From Microbispora corallina (GTDB taxonomy: Bacteria > Actinomycetota > Actinomycetes > Streptosporangiales > Streptosporangiaceae): a stretch of 64,000 nucleotides of DNA. The notes beneath the pieces were generated by a model. It was not told where the DNA came from and did not search any database. It saw only the letters and a list, made by a program, of their open reading frames with translations. Positions 1,917 through 12,398 of this stretch are shown piece by piece. The stretch spans positions 1-64,000 of the forward strand of contig NZ_BOOC01000002.1 of assembly GCF_016863035.1 (NCBI RefSeq), in the 5' to 3' direction. Each line of letters starts with the position of its first letter. Position 1 is the first letter of the stretch. A program made the position numbers and the translations under genes.

Positions 1917-3905
1917 CTACTCGGCGGACCGCTTGTTCAGGCGAGTGAGGTACTCGTTGTAGGCGTCAAGCTCGGCGTCGCCGCTGCCGCCGCTCTTCGC
2001 GGCCGCCGCGTCGGCCCGCCGGTCCGCCCGCCGCGCCGCTCGGTCGTCGTCGCGCCACCACTGGATGGCCAGGGCGAGCAGCACGATCAGCGTGGGAATC
2101 TCCCCGAAACCCCACGCAATCCCCCCTCCCGTCTGCTGGTCCGAGAGCGACGAGGCCCCCCACGTCCGGCCGAGCTGGTCGTACCAGCTGGAGGCGATCA
2201 CGGTGCCCATGCTCATCAGGGCGAGCGCGAAGAACGCGTGGAACGGCATCGTGACCAGCACCAGCAGCAGCCGCCCGACGTAGGGCAGCTTGTGCGGCGC
2301 GGGGTCGACACCGATGATCACCCAGAAGAACAGCGTCCCGCTGAGCAGGAAGTGCAGCGTCATCGCGATGTGCCCCAGATGCTCCTCCATGGCGGAGGCG
2401 AACAGGGGCGTGAAGTACAGCGCGTACGTCGAGACGATGAAGATAGCCGTCGCGATGGCGGGGTGGGTGATGAACTTGACGGCCCGGCTGTGCAGGATCA
2501 CGGTGATCCACTCGCGCGGCCCGCGGTCGCCCCTGCGGACGGCCGGCTTGAGGGCGCGCAGCGCGAGCGTCACCGGCGCGCCCAGCACCAGGAAGATCGG
2601 GGCCAGCATCGACAGGACCATGTGCTCGGCCATGTGGACGCTGAACAGCACGGGCGCGTAGCGGGCCACGCCGCTCTGGGTGGCGAGGACCAGGATGGCG
2701 ACGCCGATGTACCAGTTGACCGTGCGCCCCACCGGCCACCGGTCGCCGCGGCGGCTCATCCGGACGAGGCCCGCGCCGTACAGCCCGGCCAGGGCGACGG
2801 CCAGCGCCGCGAAGAACAGGTCGAACCACCACAGGGTCAGCAGGTTGACCACCGAGATCGGCGGCGGCACGAGGTAGCCGAGCAGTTCGAAGGCCCGGTC
2901 GAGGGGAACGTCGACCGGCGGGGGGGCGGTGCGGGACAGGGCGACCGCGAGCCCCACCGTCCCGGACATGATCAGGATCTCTCCCAGGGCGAGCCGCAGG
3001 AACGCGTGCCGTTCCCCCGACGCGAGGCGGGGCAGCGTACGGCCGCGATGCCGCCACCCGATGACGCCGAGCACGACGAAGGCGACCGTCTTGGCCAGCA
3101 GCATCAGCCCGTACGCCGAGGTGAACACCTCGCCGATCGAGGTGAGCCGGGCCATCGCGCTCGCCAGGCCCGACAGCCCGACGCCGACGAAGCACCACAA
3201 CGCCATCCGGGAGAACCGGTCGGCGGCCACGTCGAGCCGGTCCTCGCCGCGCAGGGCGTGCAGGCACAGGACGCCGAGGCCGCCGACCCACAGAGCCAGG
3301 AACAGCAGGTGGAAGGCGACGGACGTGGTGGCCAGGCCGTGGTTGGGCGAGGAGGACGAGTGGCCCGTCAGGGCGGGCGGCAACAGCGTCACAAGCGCGA
3401 AGACCAGCAGCCCGCCGGCCGCGCCCACGGTGATCGCGCCGCGGGCGAACAGGGCGATGGCCACGGTGAAGAGGACGACCAGCGTGAGGGCGATGCCCTG
3501 GGGCACCTGGCTGGCGTAGCTGGTGAGCTGGTCTCCCCCGAGGATCTGGCCGACCGGCGCGCCGAGGGTCTCCGAGAGGCTGAAGACGAGCGAGGAGGCC
3601 CCCGCGACGGCCCACACGAGCGCCGTCCACGAGGCGGCCTTGACGTACGACTGGGCCGTCTTGCCGAGGAGGCCCTTGTCGCTCGGCAGGAAGACCGCGG
3701 CGAACGCGAGCAGGCCCACCGTCAGCAGGCCCGACACGTCCATGGCCAGCTTGGAGATGGGAAGCATCCAGCGGGTCAGCATGCCCTGGTCGGGCAGGCC
3801 CGGGATGATCCGCGGCGTGGCCGCGCCCCCGGCCACCATGCCGATCACCAGCGCGCCGGCGGCCGCGCACAGCGCGGCGGCGATCAGGCGCAGCGCCCTG
3901 TTCAT
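1917..3905 (-). CDS. CopD-CtaG (caa3_CtaG) fusion membrane protein, copper uptake/cytochrome oxidase assembly
   Basis: The 662-residue integral membrane protein joins two families. The N-terminal half (about 1-330) is a CopD-like copper transport domain with about eight membrane segments. The C-terminal half (about 350-620) is a CtaG/caa3-assembly domain with histidine-bearing segments (SVHMAEHMVLSML, HLGHIAMTLHFLLSG). Such fusions follow CopC in actinobacteria and are thought to move copper through the membrane, for example to cytochrome oxidase. The tail (620-662) is basic and cytosolic. The start is ATG at 3905, overlapping the copC stop by four bases (ATGA), so the two are translationally coupled. 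The longer open frame upstream is copC's shadow. Confidence 0.9.
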   Translation of the reverse strand: MNRALRLIAAALCAAAGALVIGMVAGGAATPRIIPGLPDQGMLTRWMLPISKLAMDVSGLLTVGLLAFAAVFLPSDKGLLGKTAQSYVKAASWTALVWAVAGASSLVFSLSETLGAPVGQILGGDQLTSYASQVPQGIALTLVVLFTVAIALFARGAITVGAAGGLLVFALVTLLPPALTGHSSSSPNHGLATTSVAFHLLFLALWVGGLGVLCLHALRGEDRLDVAADRFSRMALWCFVGVGLSGLASAMARLTSIGEVFTSAYGLMLLAKTVAFVVLGVIGWRHRGRTLPRLASGERHAFLRLALGEILIMSGTVGLAVALSRTAPPPVDVPLDRAFELLGYLVPPPISVVNLLTLWWFDLFFAALAVALAGLYGAGLVRMSRRGDRWPVGRTVNWYIGVAILVLATQSGVARYAPVLFSVHMAEHMVLSMLAPIFLVLGAPVTLALRALKPAVRRGDRGPREWITVILHSRAVKFITHPAIATAIFIVSTYALYFTPLFASAMEEHLGHIAMTLHFLLSGTLFFWVIIGVDPAPHKLPYVGRLLLVLVTMPFHAFFALALMSMGTVIASSWYDQLGRTWGASSLSDQQTGGGIAWGFGEIPTLIVLLALAIQWWRDDDRAARRADRRADAAAAKSGGSGDAELDAYNEYLTRLNKRSAE

Positions 3906-4474
3906 GGCTTCTTCCGCAGGCTGATGAACATCCCGATGCCGATGCCGGCGAGCCCGAAGATCACGATCCACACCCAGCCGGGCACGGACGCGGGAGCGTC
4001 GTCCTGGCTCTGGGACGCCTGCGCGCCGGAGCCGTCCTGGCCGGCGGCCGCGCTCACGGCGGTCGGGCTGCCCACCGAGCCCGCCGTTTCCGAGCCGCCG
4101 GTGGAGGACCCGCCGACCACGGTGAAGGGGATCTCCCCCTCCACCGGGTGCCCGTCCTGCGAGACGACCCGCCAGGCGACGGTGTACCGCCCCGGCGGCA
4201 CCGCGTCGACCACCGCCTCGGAGACCTTCGGCCCGTCCACCGCCGGGTCGCCGCTCTCGTACCGCTTGCCGTCCTCGCCGCGCACGACCACGACCGGGAA
4301 CCGTACGGACTCGGCGAACTCCAGGGTGACCTTCCGCAGGGTCTGCACCTGGGCGTTCTTCTGGGGGTCGCTGTTCTTGAGCGACGTGTGCGCCTGCGCC
4401 GGGATGGCCGCGGCCATGCCCAGCAGGAGCGTCACGACGACCGCGACGACGGCGGCGAGGGAGGTCTTCTTCAT
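3902..4474 (-). CDS. copC: CopC-domain copper-binding exported protein
   Basis: The 190-residue protein has a signal peptide (MKKTSLAAVV start, hydrophobic core, AQA at 26-28). Its mature N-terminus would be H29 (HTSLKNSDP), the usual first copper ligand of CopC. The beta-sandwich copper domain follows and includes SQDGHPVEGEIPF, which carries the second conserved His and Asp. A Ser/Gly/Thr-rich linker leads to a C-terminal membrane helix (WVWIVIFGLAGIGIGMF) and a basic end, so it is anchored facing outward like YobA/YcnJ-type proteins. It presumably hands copper to the CopD-CtaG partner encoded directly downstream. The ATG at 4474 is chosen because the signal peptide starts there. Confidence 0.9.
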   Translation of the reverse strand: MKKTSLAAVVAVVVTLLLGMAAAIPAQAHTSLKNSDPQKNAQVQTLRKVTLEFAESVRFPVVVVRGEDGKRYESGDPAVDGPKVSEAVVDAVPPGRYTVAWRVVSQDGHPVEGEIPFTVVGGSSTGGSETAGSVGSPTAVSAAAGQDGSGAQASQSQDDAPASVPGWVWIVIFGLAGIGIGMFISLRKKP

Positions 4475-4507
4475 GACACCCCCAAGGCTACCGACGCCCA
4501 CCCCCGG

Positions 4508-4537
4508 TCCATACCGCGCACCGAAACCTGTGGACAA
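4508..4537 (-). promoter_or_regulatory. Candidate promoter of the copper operon
   Basis: Read on the minus strand, TTGTCC (4532-4537) is followed after 18 bases by TATGGA (4508-4513), which would start transcription about 25 bases before copC. I saw no known copper-regulator operator. Confidence 0.35.
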
Positions 4538-4604
4538 CCTGAAGAACCGCACGCAGCGATGTTCTCAACACCTCTGCTGAGAGCCGGCGGCGCGAGTAAG
4601 AGCC

Positions 4605-5900
4605 CTATAGCCCCACGCAGGCAAGCGCCCGCTTGTAGACGTCGGCACCCCTTCCGTAATCACCCGCGCGATTCGTTGTCTCCGCGACGGACTGCCACAG
4701 CTCTGCGGTCTTACGGGTGGCGGGCAGATGCTCGAGCCATTCCGCGGCCGACGACAGCTCCGCCAGGGCGTCGTCATCCCTGCCCTGCAACCAGGAGGCC
4801 TGCGCGAGCACCAGGCGCACGTCCGCCATGATCGCACTGCCCACTCGGTCAACCGTGGACTCCCGCGCCTCAAGTGCGTACCGCATCGCCTCATCGGGAT
4901 TACCCAAGGCCATCTCCGCCCGCGCGATGTTCAGCAGGCACATGGTGATCGTGGCCACTCCTGCCGACGACTCGCGCAGCTCTCGCAGAGCGCGAAGAGA
5001 AAGGTCTCGGGCGGTCAGCGCCTCAGTCGGCTTCGCCTGTAGCAGGACGATGGCGTACGCCGTGCGAAGGCGGGCCAGGTTGCGCGGTTCGCCGTTCTCC
5101 GACTGTATGGCGAGCGCACGCTCGATCAAGGTCATCGGCTCCTCACCGGCTCCGACCCTCTGCAGGGTGAGCGCGGCGTTCCAACAGGCAGCGACGATGG
5201 AGCGGGGGGTGCCCAGTTCCTCGGCCGCCTGCAGAAGCTCTCCCGCGAACTGGCGGGCGCGGAGTAGATCTCCCCGCTCGCTGTAGACGGACAACAGGGT
5301 TGAACCCAGCTCGATGAGGGCGTCGCTCCAGACGGGACGAGACGCGTTCAGACCGAGCGACTCCTCTCCCACCTGTGCCGCCGCCTGGAAGTCACCGAGT
5401 TCCCGGTAGCATCGGCACAGCGCCAGCGCCACCTGTATGCGCCGCTCGGGAGCCTGGCCCTCTTGGTCCTCCCTCAGCATCGTCAGTACGTTGATGGCCT
5501 CCGGGAGGTCCCCACAAGCCTCGACCGCCAGGGCGTAGCCGTACTGCGCCTCCTGGCGGAGCGCCGCCAGCCCTGTGAGGTTGTTGTCCTGGAGGAGCTC
5601 GGCGAACCGACGCCGCGCCTCAGCCAGGTCACCGTTCTCCAGCGCCATGCGCGCGAAGCGCAGACCCAGCTCCAGCTCCTCCATCTGCTCGGCGGTGACA
5701 CCGTTGACCAGGTAGGTGAGGGAACAGTCGAGCTTCTGCGCCAGCAGTTCGAGGACCGCCGGAGTCGGCGTACGCTTGCCACTCTCGATCAAGGAAACGT
5801 AACTGTCGGAGAGCTCTGGGTGAGCGAGCTGTGCCTGAGACAGCCCTCGCTGTCGTCGGATCGCCTTGATTCGCTCGCCGACCAAACCTTGACCGGTCAC
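4605..5900 (-). CDS. XRE-family regulator with C-terminal TPR repeats (RRNPPA-like architecture)
   Basis: The 431-residue cytosolic protein has an XRE/Cro helix-turn-helix at about residues 8-62 (GLSQAQLAHPELSDSYVSLI, then ESGKRTPTPAVLELLA). A long all-helical TPR region fills about residues 75-430. This layout matches peptide-sensing regulators of the RRNPPA group (NprR, PlcR, Rgg, AimR), which bind an imported short peptide in the TPR domain. Many actinobacterial XRE-TPR proteins have no known ligand. The start is GTG at 5900, preceded by AAGGAG at five-base spacing; the frame extending to 6140 overlaps the divergent peptide gene and is not credible. Only 58 bp separate its start from that peptide gene. 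Confidence 0.8.
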   Translation of the reverse strand: MTGQGLVGERIKAIRRQRGLSQAQLAHPELSDSYVSLIESGKRTPTPAVLELLAQKLDCSLTYLVNGVTAEQMEELELGLRFARMALENGDLAEARRRFAELLQDNNLTGLAALRQEAQYGYALAVEACGDLPEAINVLTMLREDQEGQAPERRIQVALALCRCYRELGDFQAAAQVGEESLGLNASRPVWSDALIELGSTLLSVYSERGDLLRARQFAGELLQAAEELGTPRSIVAACWNAALTLQRVGAGEEPMTLIERALAIQSENGEPRNLARLRTAYAIVLLQAKPTEALTARDLSLRALRELRESSAGVATITMCLLNIARAEMALGNPDEAMRYALEARESTVDRVGSAIMADVRLVLAQASWLQGRDDDALAELSSAAEWLEHLPATRKTAELWQSVAETTNRAGDYGRGADVYKRALACVGL

Positions 5901-5958
5901 ACGCACTCCTTGAGAAGATGAAGGCCGCACGATCGAACCCCTCACGAAAGAGGCCCTC

Positions 5959-6087
5959 ATGCGCCGCCTCGCGATGATTGCACTGACTATCCTGGCTTCG
6001 GTAGGCCTGGTAACTGCCGCCAATGCTACGGCCGCAAGCGCCTCTACGTCATCATCAATGGAGATAGCGAGCGTGTGGTGCTGCTGA
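5959..6087 (+). CDS. 42-residue peptide with secretion signal, candidate signalling propeptide
   Basis: The frame encodes a peptide that begins MRRLAMIALTILASVGLV, which is a basic N-terminus followed by a hydrophobic core. An ANA/ASA signal-peptidase-like region follows, then a Ser/Thr-rich stretch and the C-terminus MEIASVWCC. The AGAGG at 5950-5954 lies four bases before the ATG. It is head-to-head with the XRE-TPR regulator, the arrangement seen in peptide quorum-sensing pairs, where a short propeptide is exported and its C-terminal few residues act as the ligand. No maturation protease, transporter or RiPP-modifying enzyme is adjacent. It is too short for certainty, and the ligand idea is inference. 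Confidence 0.5.
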   Translation: MRRLAMIALTILASVGLVTAANATAASASTSSSMEIASVWCC

Positions 6088-7164: not shown

Positions 7165-7335
7165 GGCCTGGGCGACGCGCGCGTGGTGTTACAGACCCGT
7201 GAACACGAATTGCTCGACGGGGCAGCACCACGCACGGGGACCAGAGCTTTCGGCGGGCATGGCAGCAGGGGTTCCTCCCGCATGAGGTTCCAACGAATGC
7301 ACCTATGTCGTCGTGAGGAGGAGTTCCGCAGGCGT

Positions 7336-10263
7336 ATGGAGACCGCGGATCAGCGTGCGCTTTGTCAAGGGTCGTCTTGTCGACTGCAGTTACTGGGTCC
7401 TGTCAAGGGATGGTGCGGGGGGAAGGAGGTCGATCTCGGACCGCCGCTGCAGCGGGCCGTGCTGTGCGTCCTCGCGGCGCGCCCGGGGCAGGTCGTGACG
7501 AAGGACAGACTGATCAACTCCCTGTGGGGCAGTCGCGCCCCCGTCACCGCCGAGCAGAGCATCTACACCTACGTCGCCGGGCTGCGCCGGATCCTGGAGC
7601 CGGGGCAGGGGCCGCGCCGCCCCTACACCGTCCTCGTGCACAGGTCACGCGGCTACCTGCTGCGGCGTGAAGCGCTGGAGACCGACGCCGAGGAGTTCGA
7701 GCGTCACCTCCAGGAGGCCCGCTGGCTGCAGGCCGCCGACGATCTCGACGGATCCCTGAAGACCTTCGACCTGGCGCTGAGCATGTGGACGGGTCCCGCC
7801 CTGTGCGGCGTCCCCGGGCCGTTCGCCGAGGTGGAACGTGCCCGGCTGGAGGAGCTGCGGCTCACGGCGGGCGAGGAACGCGCCGACGTCCTGCTCGCCC
7901 TCGGCCGCCACCACGAGGCCGCGACGGCCCTGACCACGCTGGTCGGCGAGGCCCCTCTACGGGAGCGGGCGCGAGAGCTCCTCATGCTCGCGTTCTACCG
8001 CTGCGGCAGGCAGGCCGACGCTCTGGACACGTATCTCCAGCTTCAGCGTCTCCTTGGGCAGAAGCTCGGCGTCGATCCCGGCGAGGCTCTCCGCAGACGT
8101 TACGAGCTGATCCTCCGAGCCGACCCCTCCCTTGACGACCCGATCACGACCTACGTGTCCGTGGCCGAGGACCGGGACACGGATCTCGCACCGCGCCAGC
8201 TGCCGCGGGCGACCGCCCACTTCGTCGGCCGGGTCGAGGAGCTCGCACGGCTCCGATCGCTTCTGGCTCCCGGGGACGAGGGCGCCCCACAGGCCGTAAT
8301 CGCCATCACGGGCGCTCCCGGAGCCGGCAAGTCGGCGCTCGCCGTCCAGGCCGCGCACGCCGTGAGCGGTCACTTCCCGGACGGACGGCTCTACGCCAAC
8401 CTTCTCGGGGCCACGCCGGGTGTGGAACGGCTCGACGGGCTCGAGGTACTCAGCCGGTTCCTGCGCGCCTTGGGCGTCGGACATGAGAACGTTCCCTCGC
8501 AGGTGGACGAGGCCGCCGCGACGCTGCGTGATCGGCTGGAGGGGCGGCGCGCGCTGATCCTGCTCGACGACGCCGCCCACATCGACCAGGTGCGCCCGCT
8601 GCTGAACCTCCCGCACGGAAACGCCGTCCTGATCACCAGCCGTGAGTCGTTCGCCATGGCCGACGACTGCGTCCACCTGGTCCTCGGCGGCTTGGGACGC
8701 AGCGAGGCGGTCACGGTACTGGCGAAGCTCGCCGGCGCGGCCCGCATCGCGGCCGACCCCATCGCCGCCGGCCGCCTGGCGGACCTCTGCGGCGGCCTGC
8801 CGCTCGCCCTGCGCCTGGCCGGCGCCCGGCTCGTCGAACGCCCGCAGTGGACGGTGCACGACCTCGCCGTACGGCTGGAGGACAGGCGCCGGACCCTGCA
8901 CGAGCTGGAGTCGGGGCAGACCGCCGTCCGATCGAGCCTGGAGATGAGCTACGAGTCGCTGCGCAGGAGCCGCGCCGCGGTCGACAGGACAGCGGCGCGC
9001 GCCCTCTGCCGTCTGGGCGTTCTGCACGTGGCGGAGGTGACCCCGGACGTCATGGCCGCCCTGCTCGACGAACCCGTGGACGTCGCCGAGCGGGCGCTCA
9101 ACCGGCTCTCACGGGCCCATCTGGTCGAGCCGGTCGCGTCGAGGCGGTTCCGGCCGCACGATCTCGTGCGACTGTTCGCGATCGAACTTGCCGACGAGCA
9201 GCTCTCGGCCCAGGAGAGATCCCTGGCGCTGATCCGCGCGCTCGGCTTCTACGGCGCCACGATGCATCGTGCGAACCACCTGGTGGACCCGCACCGTGTG
9301 CAACCCCCCTGGCCCGACGTCCCCCAGCATCCCGCCCCTCTGACCGATGCCCAGGACGCCAAGGCCTGGCAGGAGTCGGAACGGGCGAACGTCATCGCGG
9401 CGACGATGCAGGCGACCTCCTGCCCCGACGACGCGGTCGCCCTGATGGGGGCGTACCTGGGATTCTCGCTCGCGTGGCACCTCTATTGGGGCGGACATCG
9501 CAACGATCATCTGCAGATCGGCGAGGCGGCGCTGCGGGTGGCGGCGCGAACGGGCGATTCGACTGTGGAGGCCCTGGCGCATAACCAGCTGTCCATGGCC
9601 TTCAACCGTTTGAACCGGGCCGCCGACGCCACAGTGCACCATGAGGCCGAGCTGCGCCTGCAGCGGGTGCTGGGTGATCGCTTCGGAGAGATGCGAGCCC
9701 TGGGCAATCTCAGCCTCAACTACTCAGACCTCGGACGGTACGCGAAGGGGCTTGAGTGTGCCGAGCTCCAGCTGCAGATCGCCCGGGAGATCGGCTCCGA
9801 GGTCGGTGAGCGGCACGCGCTGGTCATGACCGCGATCGCCCTGCGAGGGCTCGGTGACTGGTCATCGGCCTTGTCGCTCCTCGAAGAGGCGTCCTCACTG
9901 GCGGAGCAGGCCGGGGATCACGCACACGTGGCCATGTGCCTCGGGCCCATGGCGTCCATTCGTTCCGAACGCGGCGACCTGGCGGCGGCCAAGAGCCATC
10001 TTGAACGTTCTCTCGTCCATCTCCGCGAGGTTGGCTATCAGGATGCCGAGCTCGGGCGGCTGTGCCAGCTCGTCGAGGTGGAGCGTCTTCTCGGCGACCT
10101 CGAAAGCGCCCGGGCGCACGCACTGCGAGCGGAACGCCTGGCGCGTGAGCTGAACGACCCCCGGCTCGGCGCCGTCGCGGCGCGGGAGCTGGAGGCGATC
10201 CGGGAGGCCATGGCCGGCACGAACACCTCGCCGGAGCGCGCTGCCGCCATAATGGGCGAGTGA
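7336..10263 (+). CDS. AfsR-type SARP regulator (wHTH-BTAD-NB-ARC-TPR), copy 1
   Basis: The 975-residue regulator follows the AfsR plan. A winged helix of the Trans_reg_C type covers about 15-110 (LQLLGPVKGWCGGKEVDLG, SRGYLLR), and a BTAD all-helical domain about 115-265. An NB-ARC ATPase follows, with P-loop GAPGAGKSA near 325-333 and Walker B RALILLDDA. C-terminal TPR repeats occupy about 740-960. Such proteins activate secondary metabolism or development genes and are controlled by ATP binding and sometimes phosphorylation. The start is uncertain: I use the ATG at 7336, the position matching its paralog, with GAGGAG about 12 bases upstream, although the frame is open from 7183. Its stop overlaps the next start by four bases (GTGA). 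Confidence 0.85.
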   Translation: METADQRALCQGSSCRLQLLGPVKGWCGGKEVDLGPPLQRAVLCVLAARPGQVVTKDRLINSLWGSRAPVTAEQSIYTYVAGLRRILEPGQGPRRPYTVLVHRSRGYLLRREALETDAEEFERHLQEARWLQAADDLDGSLKTFDLALSMWTGPALCGVPGPFAEVERARLEELRLTAGEERADVLLALGRHHEAATALTTLVGEAPLRERARELLMLAFYRCGRQADALDTYLQLQRLLGQKLGVDPGEALRRRYELILRADPSLDDPITTYVSVAEDRDTDLAPRQLPRATAHFVGRVEELARLRSLLAPGDEGAPQAVIAITGAPGAGKSALAVQAAHAVSGHFPDGRLYANLLGATPGVERLDGLEVLSRFLRALGVGHENVPSQVDEAAATLRDRLEGRRALILLDDAAHIDQVRPLLNLPHGNAVLITSRESFAMADDCVHLVLGGLGRSEAVTVLAKLAGAARIAADPIAAGRLADLCGGLPLALRLAGARLVERPQWTVHDLAVRLEDRRRTLHELESGQTAVRSSLEMSYESLRRSRAAVDRTAARALCRLGVLHVAEVTPDVMAALLDEPVDVAERALNRLSRAHLVEPVASRRFRPHDLVRLFAIELADEQLSAQERSLALIRALGFYGATMHRANHLVDPHRVQPPWPDVPQHPAPLTDAQDAKAWQESERANVIAATMQATSCPDDAVALMGAYLGFSLAWHLYWGGHRNDHLQIGEAALRVAARTGDSTVEALAHNQLSMAFNRLNRAADATVHHEAELRLQRVLGDRFGEMRALGNLSLNYSDLGRYAKGLECAELQLQIAREIGSEVGERHALVMTAIALRGLGDWSSALSLLEEASSLAEQAGDHAHVAMCLGPMASIRSERGDLAAAKSHLERSLVHLREVGYQDAELGRLCQLVEVERLLGDLESARAHALRAERLARELNDPRLGAVAARELEAIREAMAGTNTSPERAAAIMGE

Positions 10264-12398
10264 GCGTGCCCGATCAGCCGTCGGCGCGCGACGCGGCCTC
10301 CCTCGTCGTACGGCTTCAGCTGCTGGGGCCGGTCGCGGCGTGGCGGGGGGACCTGGCCGTGGATCTCGGGCCGCCGCTCCAGCGCGCGGTCCTGTGCCTG
10401 CTCGCCGCGCAGCCCGGACAGGTCGTGGCCAAGGACAGGCTGATCGCCGGGCTGTGGGGCGGCGGCCACCCGAAGACCGCGGAGCAGAGCGTCTACACCT
10501 ACATCGCGGGGCTTCGCGGCGCGCTCGAACCCGAGGCGGGCCGCCGCGGCCCCTATGGCCTGGTGCTCAGTTCGGCCCGCGGCTACCTGCTGGCCGCCGG
10601 GGCCTATGACATCGACGCCGGGCGGTTCGACCACCACCTCGGCCGGGCCCGGCATCACGCCGCGGAGAACGACCCGCAGGCCCGCCTCGGGGAGCTGGAA
10701 GCCGCGTTACGGCAGTGGACCGGGCCCGCCCTGGGCGGCGTCCCCGGCCCCTTCGCCCACGCCGAGCGGGAACGCCTGGAAGGCCTGCGCCTCACGGCGC
10801 GTGAGGACCAGGCCGACACGCTGCTGTGCCTGGGCCGGCCTCAGGAAGCGGTGGAGCTCCTCACCGCGCTCGTCGGCGACGACCCCCTCAGGGAACGGGC
10901 CCGCGAGCTGCTCATGCTCGCCCTCTACCGCTGCGGACGCCAGGCCGAGGCGCTGGCGGCCTACCACGAGGGCCGGCGGCTGCTCGCCGAGCACCTCGGC
11001 GTGGATCCCGGTGAGTCGCTGCAGCGCTGCCACGAGCTGATCCTGCGCGCCGACCCCTCCCTCGCCCCACCCAGGGACACCGTCCGGCCGCCCACGATCC
11101 CCCGCCAGCTGCCGCGCGACATCCGCGTCTTCGTGGGACGCGCCGAGGAGCTCGCGCGGCTCCGGTCCCTGCTCGTGCCGCCGGACGGCTCGGCGCCACA
11201 GGCCATCGTCGCCGTGACCGGCACGGCGGGCGCGGGCAAGTCGGCGGTCGCGGTGCACGCCGCCCACGCGGTGCGGGACCACTTCCCCGGCGGTCAGCTG
11301 TACGCCAACCTCCTCGGCGCCACGCCCGGAGTCCAGCGCCTGCGGCCCATCGACCTGCTCGGCAGGCTCCTGCGCGGGCTGGGAGTGCACCCCGAGGCCG
11401 TGCCGGCGGAGCCGGACGAGGCGGCGGCCATGCTCAGGACGCGGTTGCAGGGGCGCCGCCTGCTGATCGTGCTCGACGACGCGGCGGGCCCCGACCAGGT
11501 CCGCCCCCTGCTCGGCCTGCCCGCGGGGAACGCCGTCCTCGTCACGAGCCGGGAGTCGTTCGCGATCGTCGACGACTGCGTGGCGGTCCCCCTGGGGACG
11601 ATGCCGCACGCCGAGGCGGTCGCCATGCTGGCCGAGCTCGTCGGCGCCGAGCGCGTGGCGGCCGACCCGCGGGCGGCCGCGGAGCTGGCGAACCTGTGCG
11701 GCGGGCTGCCGCTGGCCCTGCGCCTCGCGGCGGCCCGGCTCGCCGAGAACCGCCACGCGAGCCTGAAGGACCTCAACGCCCGGCTCCGGGACCGGAGGCG
11801 CGCCCTGCACGAGCTGGAGTCCGGGGACGTCGCCGTCAGTGCCAGCCTGCGGCTGAGCCACGACCTGCTCTCCGGCAGTCCTCGGGAGCTCGACGTGGCC
11901 GCCGCGCGGGCCCTGCGCCACCTGGGCGTCCTGCACATCCCCGACGCGACCGCCGAGGTCGTCGCGGCCCTGCTCGACGTCCCGGCGCCGGACGCCGAGC
12001 GGTACGTGGACCGCCTCGCCCGGGCCCACCTCGCCGAACGGCACGAGTCCGGCCGCTTCCGGCTGCACGACCTGGTCCGCCTGTTCGCCATAGAACTGGC
12101 CGAACGGCACCTGACGGACGAGGAGCGCAGGGACGCCCTGCTGCGGGCGGTGGGCCTGTACGGCCTCACCATCCGCCACGCCATGACGCTGGTCGACGCC
12201 AACCGCGTCCATCCGCCGTACGACTTCGTGGAGCGCGAGCCGGTCGCGTTTGCCGAGGAGGCGGACGCGTTCGGCTGGCTGGAGCGGGAACGGCCGAACA
12301 TCCTGGCCGCGGCCGCCCAGGCCATGTCCGTCGCCGACCCCTCCGTCGCCCGCGCAGGGGCCTACCTGACGTTCACGTTCTACTGGCCTCTCGTGTAA
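10260..12398 (+). CDS. AfsR-type SARP regulator, copy 2, N-terminal portion ended by an in-frame TAA
   Basis: This 712-residue product is a clear paralog of the preceding gene. It has the wHTH (LQLLGPVAAW), BTAD, and NB-ARC with P-loop GTAGAGKSA near residue 321 and Walker B LLIVLDDA. The GTG start overlaps the previous stop (GTGA), so translation is coupled. The protein ends AYLTFTFYWPLV at TAA (12396-12398). In copy 1 the same place reads AYLGFSLAWHLYW followed by GGHR, and here the frame continues as TGHR after the stop. The TAA therefore replaces the codon aligned with Trp. The truncated protein keeps DNA-binding and ATPase domains but lacks the TPR sensor part. Confidence 0.8.
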   Translation: MSVPDQPSARDAASLVVRLQLLGPVAAWRGDLAVDLGPPLQRAVLCLLAAQPGQVVAKDRLIAGLWGGGHPKTAEQSVYTYIAGLRGALEPEAGRRGPYGLVLSSARGYLLAAGAYDIDAGRFDHHLGRARHHAAENDPQARLGELEAALRQWTGPALGGVPGPFAHAERERLEGLRLTAREDQADTLLCLGRPQEAVELLTALVGDDPLRERARELLMLALYRCGRQAEALAAYHEGRRLLAEHLGVDPGESLQRCHELILRADPSLAPPRDTVRPPTIPRQLPRDIRVFVGRAEELARLRSLLVPPDGSAPQAIVAVTGTAGAGKSAVAVHAAHAVRDHFPGGQLYANLLGATPGVQRLRPIDLLGRLLRGLGVHPEAVPAEPDEAAAMLRTRLQGRRLLIVLDDAAGPDQVRPLLGLPAGNAVLVTSRESFAIVDDCVAVPLGTMPHAEAVAMLAELVGAERVAADPRAAAELANLCGGLPLALRLAAARLAENRHASLKDLNARLRDRRRALHELESGDVAVSASLRLSHDLLSGSPRELDVAAARALRHLGVLHIPDATAEVVAALLDVPAPDAERYVDRLARAHLAERHESGRFRLHDLVRLFAIELAERHLTDEERRDALLRAVGLYGLTIRHAMTLVDANRVHPPYDFVEREPVAFAEEADAFGWLERERPNILAAAAQAMSVADPSVARAGAYLTFTFYWPLV

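Follow-up and report, generated by a model that had tools for sequence, protein, structure and literature searches.

The 64,000-nucleotide stretch of the Microbispora corallina contig NZ_BOOC01000002.1 that was analysed here (the window) harbors, back to back, a gene for a regulator with helix-turn-helix (HTH) and tetratricopeptide repeat (TPR) parts and a short gene for an export-type peptide ending in Cys-Cys, which quite probably constitute a peptide-pheromone module working like an RRNPPA pair. Directly established are the occurrence and conservation of the two genes as a pair and the constancy of the peptide tail, as well as a predicted receptor fold and the changes in the receptor that go with the loss of Cys-Cys. 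The pair is composed of the following elements:

4605..5900, minus strand: HTH-TPR regulator, the proposed peptide receptor (GTG start at 5900, stop at 4605, 431 aa)
5703..5879, minus strand: DNA-binding HTH, residues 8-66 (Pfam HTH_3 at residues 11-64, HTH_19 at 8-68)
4617..5693, minus strand: TPR superhelix, residues 70-428 (AlphaFold2 model, TPR Pfam matches and fold matches)
5034..5324, minus strand: part of the TPR groove, residues 193-289, helices h12-h16, where changes accompany the loss of Cys-Cys
5901..5958, no strand: 58-bp spacer separating the start codons of the divergent genes
5946..5953, plus strand: ribosome-binding-site-like GAAAGAGG of the peptide gene, with purine-rich motifs at the same place in relatives
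5959..6087, plus strand: 42-codon propeptide gene, coordinates including the stop (ATG at 5959, stop at 6087), divergent from the regulator
5959..6045, plus strand: predicted signal peptide, approximately residues 1-29, with a basic start, a hydrophobic run and an A-x-A-like end
6046..6078, plus strand: variable tail, residues 30-40, from which the pheromone is proposed to derive (positions -3 to -10 have an entropy of 3.2-3.8 bits)
6079..6084, plus strand: C-terminal Cys-Cys codons (Cys-Cys in 71 of 80 named loci, defined below)

The initial annotation of this DNA had placed both genes, 58 bp apart from start to start, at the correct coordinates and had described the regulator as HTH plus TPR, in agreement with the Pfam matches to HTH_3 (E 5.8e-12) and to several TPR families. 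The AlphaFold2 model displays a TPR superhelix with a mean predicted local distance difference test (pLDDT) value of 92.3. In the mechanical list of open reading frames the regulator starts at GTG 6140 (511 aa); relatives share instead the start at 5900, in keeping with the proposal that the peptide gene lies outside the believable frame of the regulator. A ribosome-binding-site-like GAAAGAGG at 5946-5953, before the ATG, matches the ribosome binding site named in the initial annotation. Profile searches match the regulator to NprR (E 5e-8 and 1e-7) and PlcR (1.7e-7), and also to RapH and ComR, and an NCBIfam scan returned no model at its cut-off. The fold matches of the receptor model include PlcR, Rap and NprR; designed and eukaryotic TPR proteins score equally high, and the matches to LGN and APPBP2 were set aside as generic background of the TPR fold. 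With its N-terminal HTH, its TPR and a length within 250-500 aa, the regulator agrees in size and domain content with the RRNPPA receptors, a group in which the Rap-type receptors are devoid of an N-terminal HTH. Common ancestry with the known RRNPPA receptors is a possibility.

The peptide consists of 42 amino acids (MRRLAMIALTILASVGLVTAANATAASASTSSSMEIASVWCC) and matched no family in a Pfam scan. Searched against the window's genome, a profile built from the peptides of relatives gives one clear match, this gene (E 2.1e-14), followed by a next hit at 0.056. Counted from the C-terminus, 72 Cys-Cys peptides share a common layout in which Cys-Cys, of zero entropy since the set was chosen for such ends, is preceded by eight hypervariable positions (3.2-3.8 bits) and by a quieter, Ser/Pro/Ala-rich stretch at positions -11 to -13 (2.1-2.9 bits). 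An A-x-A motif is located within residues 20-34 in 64 of the 72, preceded by a hydrophobic core and, at the N-terminus, by basic residues, the export signal being judged from composition and motif. Judged in this way, the layout is that of a putative Sec-exported propeptide with a private code in its last residues. The initial annotation had drawn attention to a Trp-Cys-Cys end; Cys-Cys is the signature, whereas Trp occupies position -3, which is variable.

Throughout the genus, regulator and peptide are found together. A regulator orthologue is present in 15 of 15 genomes, the other 14 being 59-70% identical, and a divergent frame of 34 or more codons that ends in Cys-Cys is likewise found in all 15. 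Peptides of other genomes in the genus are identical to those of named Microbispora loci, as with L017 and L118 (M. bryophytorum), which assigns the window's genome to Microbispora. At a wider scale, a scan of named genomes returned 255 relatives, the best 80 of which are referred to as the named loci; their genera presumably belong to the Streptosporangiaceae, and the set also includes one actinobacterial metagenome-assembled genome. The divergent signal-peptide frame that the initial annotation suggested seeking in relatives begins near the regulator in all 80 named loci and ends in Cys-Cys in 71 and in another tail in nine. Among the 71, the Cys codons are mostly TGC with some TGT, and the stops are TGA (61), TAG (nine) and TAA (one); this variation suggests that the amino acids are kept and not a DNA word. 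Peptide length ranges from 40 to 49 aa and the start-to-start distance from 51 to 64 nt in the 71 loci and the window, with start codons picked by script. In the 72 corresponding spacers the best palindromes average 0.89, compared with 1.35 for shuffles, and since they score below the shuffles an inverted-repeat operator is not proposed. In one Microbispora (L118) a palindrome has 7/8 matching pairs; it was discarded as not general.

Across the family, 187 of 297 genomes match the regulator at E<=1e-60. Forty further family regions yielded 27 Cys-Cys peptides, six alternative tails and seven without either, and Cys-Cys peptides were found in five of 20 deeper family regions; together with the 20 class-level regions described below, these 80 regions were hand-picked for diversity from longer match lists. 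Cys-Cys frames without a signal-like start (L244, L302 and an extra frame in L204) were left uncounted. The genus, family and named sets have species in common and should not be taken as independent.

Several controls address chance occurrence of such frames. In shuffles of the 80 named regions a frame that is 34 codons or longer and ends in Cys-Cys arises in 30 of 16,000 cases. Applied next to the 1,349 other mechanical frames of 200 aa or more in these loci, a rule of 34-95 codons gives a single match, which is the same peptide in L122, compared with 71 of the 80 real loci under the identical rule. The genus also possesses a second HTH-TPR paralogue with 33-37% identity, present in all 15 genomes (L002, L020-L033), and within the flanks searched none of its 15 loci contains a Cys-Cys peptide. 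For the 15 genus peptides (105 pairs), the ratio of non-synonymous to synonymous changes (pN/pS) comes to 0.68 over the signal part, as against 1.18 over the eight residues that precede Cys-Cys. Wrong-frame controls give 0.67 and 1.27, so that the frames are not separated, and the synonymous bias by which the initial annotation proposed to judge the frame is weak; this counts against the frame being real. Because pN/pS fails to separate the frames, the case for coding rests on the constant ends, the spacing and the controls.

The nine named loci without Cys-Cys form a monophyletic clade in which Cys-Cys is mostly replaced by Trp-x-x-Pro; L164 (Planomonospora sp. ID82291), with the tail QLGPLNNAE, is the only named locus of the 80 that has neither. 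Receptors of this clade carry 11 diagnostic changes, the largest number in any clade tested (clades of 4-38 members). Nine of the 11 are located in inner TPR helices (P 0.0007 relative to the whole protein, 0.019 relative to the TPR part), the inner face being assigned from helix order and not from model coordinates. Seven fall into h12, h14 and h16 (P 9e-5 and 0.0012), helices that were chosen after the result had been seen. Thr201, Ala237, Asn241 and Asn274 change together with the loss of Cys-Cys; Trp240 and Arg273 stay conserved. In 23 hand-picked distant Cys-Cys receptors, 31-45% identical to that of the window, Thr201 is kept in 21, Ala237 in 21, Asn241 in 20 and Asn274 in 19. Over 65 loci, moreover, peptide distance correlates with receptor distance given the neighbouring CopD (r 0.374, p 0.001); the corresponding values are -0.082 for peptide and CopD given the receptor and -0.001 for peptide and HTH given CopD. 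By these distances, the peptide and its receptor have diverged in step, to a degree that the neighbouring gene does not account for. The covariation of tail and pocket rests on one independent loss of Cys-Cys.

Some lineages have lost the peptide gene. L230-L235, L239 and L085 contain same-family regulators whose peptide gene is gone and which are about 42-45% identical to that of the window where correctly read. Twelve regulators without a peptide, including an out-of-frame row (L231) that is to be dropped, make a weak comparison, several of them being recent losses with a similar pocket. Peptide-less regulators that keep most of the pocket residues may listen to the peptides of others.

A mechanism along the following lines can be proposed. 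The plus-strand gene would give rise to the 42-residue propeptide, whose basic and hydrophobic start would direct it into Sec export, with cleavage near the A-x-A motif. The variability profile suggests that the released tail, or its last 8-12 residues or so, ending in Cys-Cys, acts as the signal, which may re-enter the cell through an oligopeptide permease. The genome contains 15 SBP_bac_5 proteins at E<=1e-20, which makes oligopeptide import possible and no more. Inside the cell the peptide would sit in the groove of the TPR superhelix, where the covariation places Thr201, Ala237, Trp240 and Asn241 among the residues likely to read Cys-Cys. Binding would then alter how the HTH holds the divergent promoter region of 58 bp, and probably other promoters as well. 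A fixed anchor, a disulfide, a redox gate and metal binding are all candidate roles of Cys-Cys.

Related pairs extend beyond the family. In the class, 60 of 394 genomes match at E<=1e-45. A divergent Cys-Cys peptide is present in 10 of 11 loci from other families, the eleventh (L200) ending 238 bases upstream at a contig end, as L216 is also cut by one. The 20 further class-level regions comprise six with a divergent peptide, one with a peptide on the same strand and 13 in which none was seen. Among Streptomyces-type genomes the regulator is found at E<=1e-40 in 14 of 199, and 10 of 16 such loci carry a Cys-Cys peptide, seven divergent and three downstream. L301, L302, L312 and L313 are not firm negatives, as they share pocket residues with regulators whose peptide lies downstream; the peptide of L290 is 1.9 kb from its regulator, beyond the 1.5-kb flanks of the peptide-less Streptomyces-type loci. 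Two Streptomyces plasmids encode, downstream of HTH-TPR regulators, Cys-Cys peptides with signal-like starts that are annotated as hypothetical proteins: WP_331750220.1 (DLPLCC, L290:6220-6384) and WP_123083198.1 (DIPLCC, L291:4518-4733). Six further Streptomyces plasmid records encode relatives of the L291 peptide. In four other plasmid loci, from Streptomyces (L292, L293, L296) and Streptosporangium (L295), no such peptide was seen.

At the level of the phylum, 28 of 396 genomes match at E<=1e-40, that of the window included. In 14 of the 28 loci examined (L261-L289) a short hydrophobic peptide is encoded divergently and has adjacent Trp and Pro among its last eight residues, for example GYPWPK or ANWPHH, compared with 67 of 8,400 shuffles and none of 28 on the opposite strand. 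Of these 14 peptides, two have a Cys-Cys end, and three of the 13 Trp-Pro rows in the pocket comparison (L276, L281, L282) also have Cys-Cys in the tail. A viral scan gave 10 loci, which match at most the first 105 residues of the regulator, and one unverified phage scaffold matches over 285 residues with no such peptide in the flank searched; on these results phage-borne versions of the pair were set aside. It is conceivable, with the odds somewhat against it, that these loci represent a peptide language of the Actinomycetota as a whole, in which HTH-TPR receptors respond to tiny exported peptides with a Cys-Cys or Trp-Pro anchor behind a variable private code. In such a language a fixed pocket within consecutive inner TPR helices would recognize Cys-Cys, whose thiols could gate the message by redox state, so that it is heard only when reduced.

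The genes flanking the pair in the window include the following:

3902..4552, minus strand: CopC-like gene downstream of the regulator, a conserved neighbour that is not thought to be part of the module
7183..10263, plus strand: AfsR-like (SARP) gene downstream of the peptide gene, an optional neighbour

CopD- and CopC-like genes (1917-4552) follow the regulator in the same direction. CopC is present in 78 and CopD in 79 of the 80 named loci. A search of the flanks (mostly 1.5 kb) of 32 class-level, Streptomyces-type and plasmid loci found neither gene, and this neighbourhood is therefore read as old synteny and not as function. On the other side, two tandem AfsR-like genes (SARP, with BTAD and NB-ARC, named by eye) occupy 7183-12398 and lie beside the peptide in some relatives only. 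A BTAD-domain gene is also located near the peptide of one Streptomyces plasmid. Recurrent neighbours on the peptide side were read by eye from their sequences as PucR-type, purine-catabolism-type and SARP. The peptide-signalling module of the initial annotation is retained in its RRNPPA-like layout, its conserved pair and the covariation of tail and receptor, but its supposed feeding of the downstream AfsR-like genes does not hold as a general rule: such a gene stands beside the peptide in only 26 (by tblastn) or 25 (by gene clustering) of the 80 named loci. SARP genes are possible targets in those lineages only.

Four other explanations of the pair were weighed. The peptide might be an antimicrobial, a toxin or a modified peptide resembling ribosomally synthesized and post-translationally modified peptides (RiPPs), with the regulator controlling immunity or production. 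A secreted-type, hypervariable product with a Cys-Cys end, encoded in single copy beside an HTH regulator, would suit such a role; however, no recurrent gene reading as a maturation or export enzyme was recognized by eye among up to three clustered peptide-side genes of the named loci, and its specificity covaries with the TPR part, which renders this explanation very unlikely. A secreted binder of metal (copper) or thiols, serving CopC and CopD under a regulator that controls copper supply, is suggested by the occurrence of these genes at nearly all of the 80 named loci (CopC at 78, CopD at 79) and by the ability of vicinal cysteines to bind copper(I). It is nevertheless very unlikely: 22 of the 32 distant loci without CopC or CopD in the flanks searched still carry a Cys-Cys peptide, and neither eight hypervariable residues before Cys-Cys nor the Cys-free tails of one clade are suited to a metal site.

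Alternatively, the regulator could sense the peptide inside the producing cell and report on secretion or redox state without any intercellular message. Vicinal cysteines could respond to redox, and self-sensing is known in some Firmicute pairs; the hypervariable tails and matched receptor changes look instead like private codes between cells, and we regard this variant as highly unlikely. The least probable of the four is a cysteine-sensing leader, in which ribosomes stalling at the two Cys codons would control a downstream operon. Two terminal Cys codons in a short actinomycete frame recall the polycysteine leaders of this kind reported in mycobacteria. Against this, transcription of the frame leads away from the regulator, towards neighbours of the PucR, purine-catabolism and SARP types (as read by eye) and, in the window, an AfsR-like gene as the next large gene on the same strand; moreover, the signal peptide has been conserved, the frame persists without Cys-Cys in nine relatives, and the tail covaries with the receptor. 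The pheromone module remains the preferred reading.

Actinomycete signals are described as typically small molecules in the parts covered of a large 2023 RRNPPA survey, which dealt with Firmicutes and viruses (PMC10075063). A 2016 review of quorum sensing in actinobacteria also names gamma-butyrolactones and cyclic or modified peptides and lists TPR among the components, and the passages covered contain no such pair (PMC4748050). Term searches of two papers on RRNPPA evolution (PMC9765709, PMC12700828) did not find actinobacteria or Streptomyces. In the open-access literature, within the titles and abstract openings of the matches listed, no such pair was found for the phylum, most subscription papers and all bioRxiv preprints being outside this scope. 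A peptide gene back to back with a receptor-like regulator in many relatives points, on sequence grounds, to a so far undescribed peptide language of actinomycetes. In Streptomyces, BldK imports an extracellular peptide, a signal that to our knowledge has long gone without identification, and many genera bearing the pair are known for antibiotics. The conserved pair supplies defined peptides that can be synthesized and added to cultures, so that direct tests of whether peptides control development or antibiotic production become possible.

Comparison with known systems reveals partial likenesses. The NsdA family comprises TPR regulators of actinomycetes (Streptomyces), for which we know of no peptide partner; the window's regulator matches its model weakly (E 4.9e-5, 23 bits), far under the NCBIfam NF053720 cut-off of 75 bits. 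Mycobacterial polycysteine leaders are short frames with Cys codons that have no signal peptide and act in cis on the downstream operon. Gamma-butyrolactone systems employ an enzyme-made small molecule and TetR-type receptors. Like the proposed module they would serve cell-cell signalling within this phylum (PMC4748050, in the passages covered); no sequence relation is claimed. The closest parallel is provided by the RRNPPA systems PlcR-PapR, NprR-NprX, Rap-Phr, ComR-XIP and AimR-AimP, with which the pair shares an HTH-TPR receptor of about 430 aa adjoining a short export-type propeptide with variable C-terminal residues. In contrast to these, its hosts are actinomycetes and not Firmicutes, its peptide has a constant Cys-Cys end, and within the family the two genes are arranged divergently with 51-64 nt between their starts.
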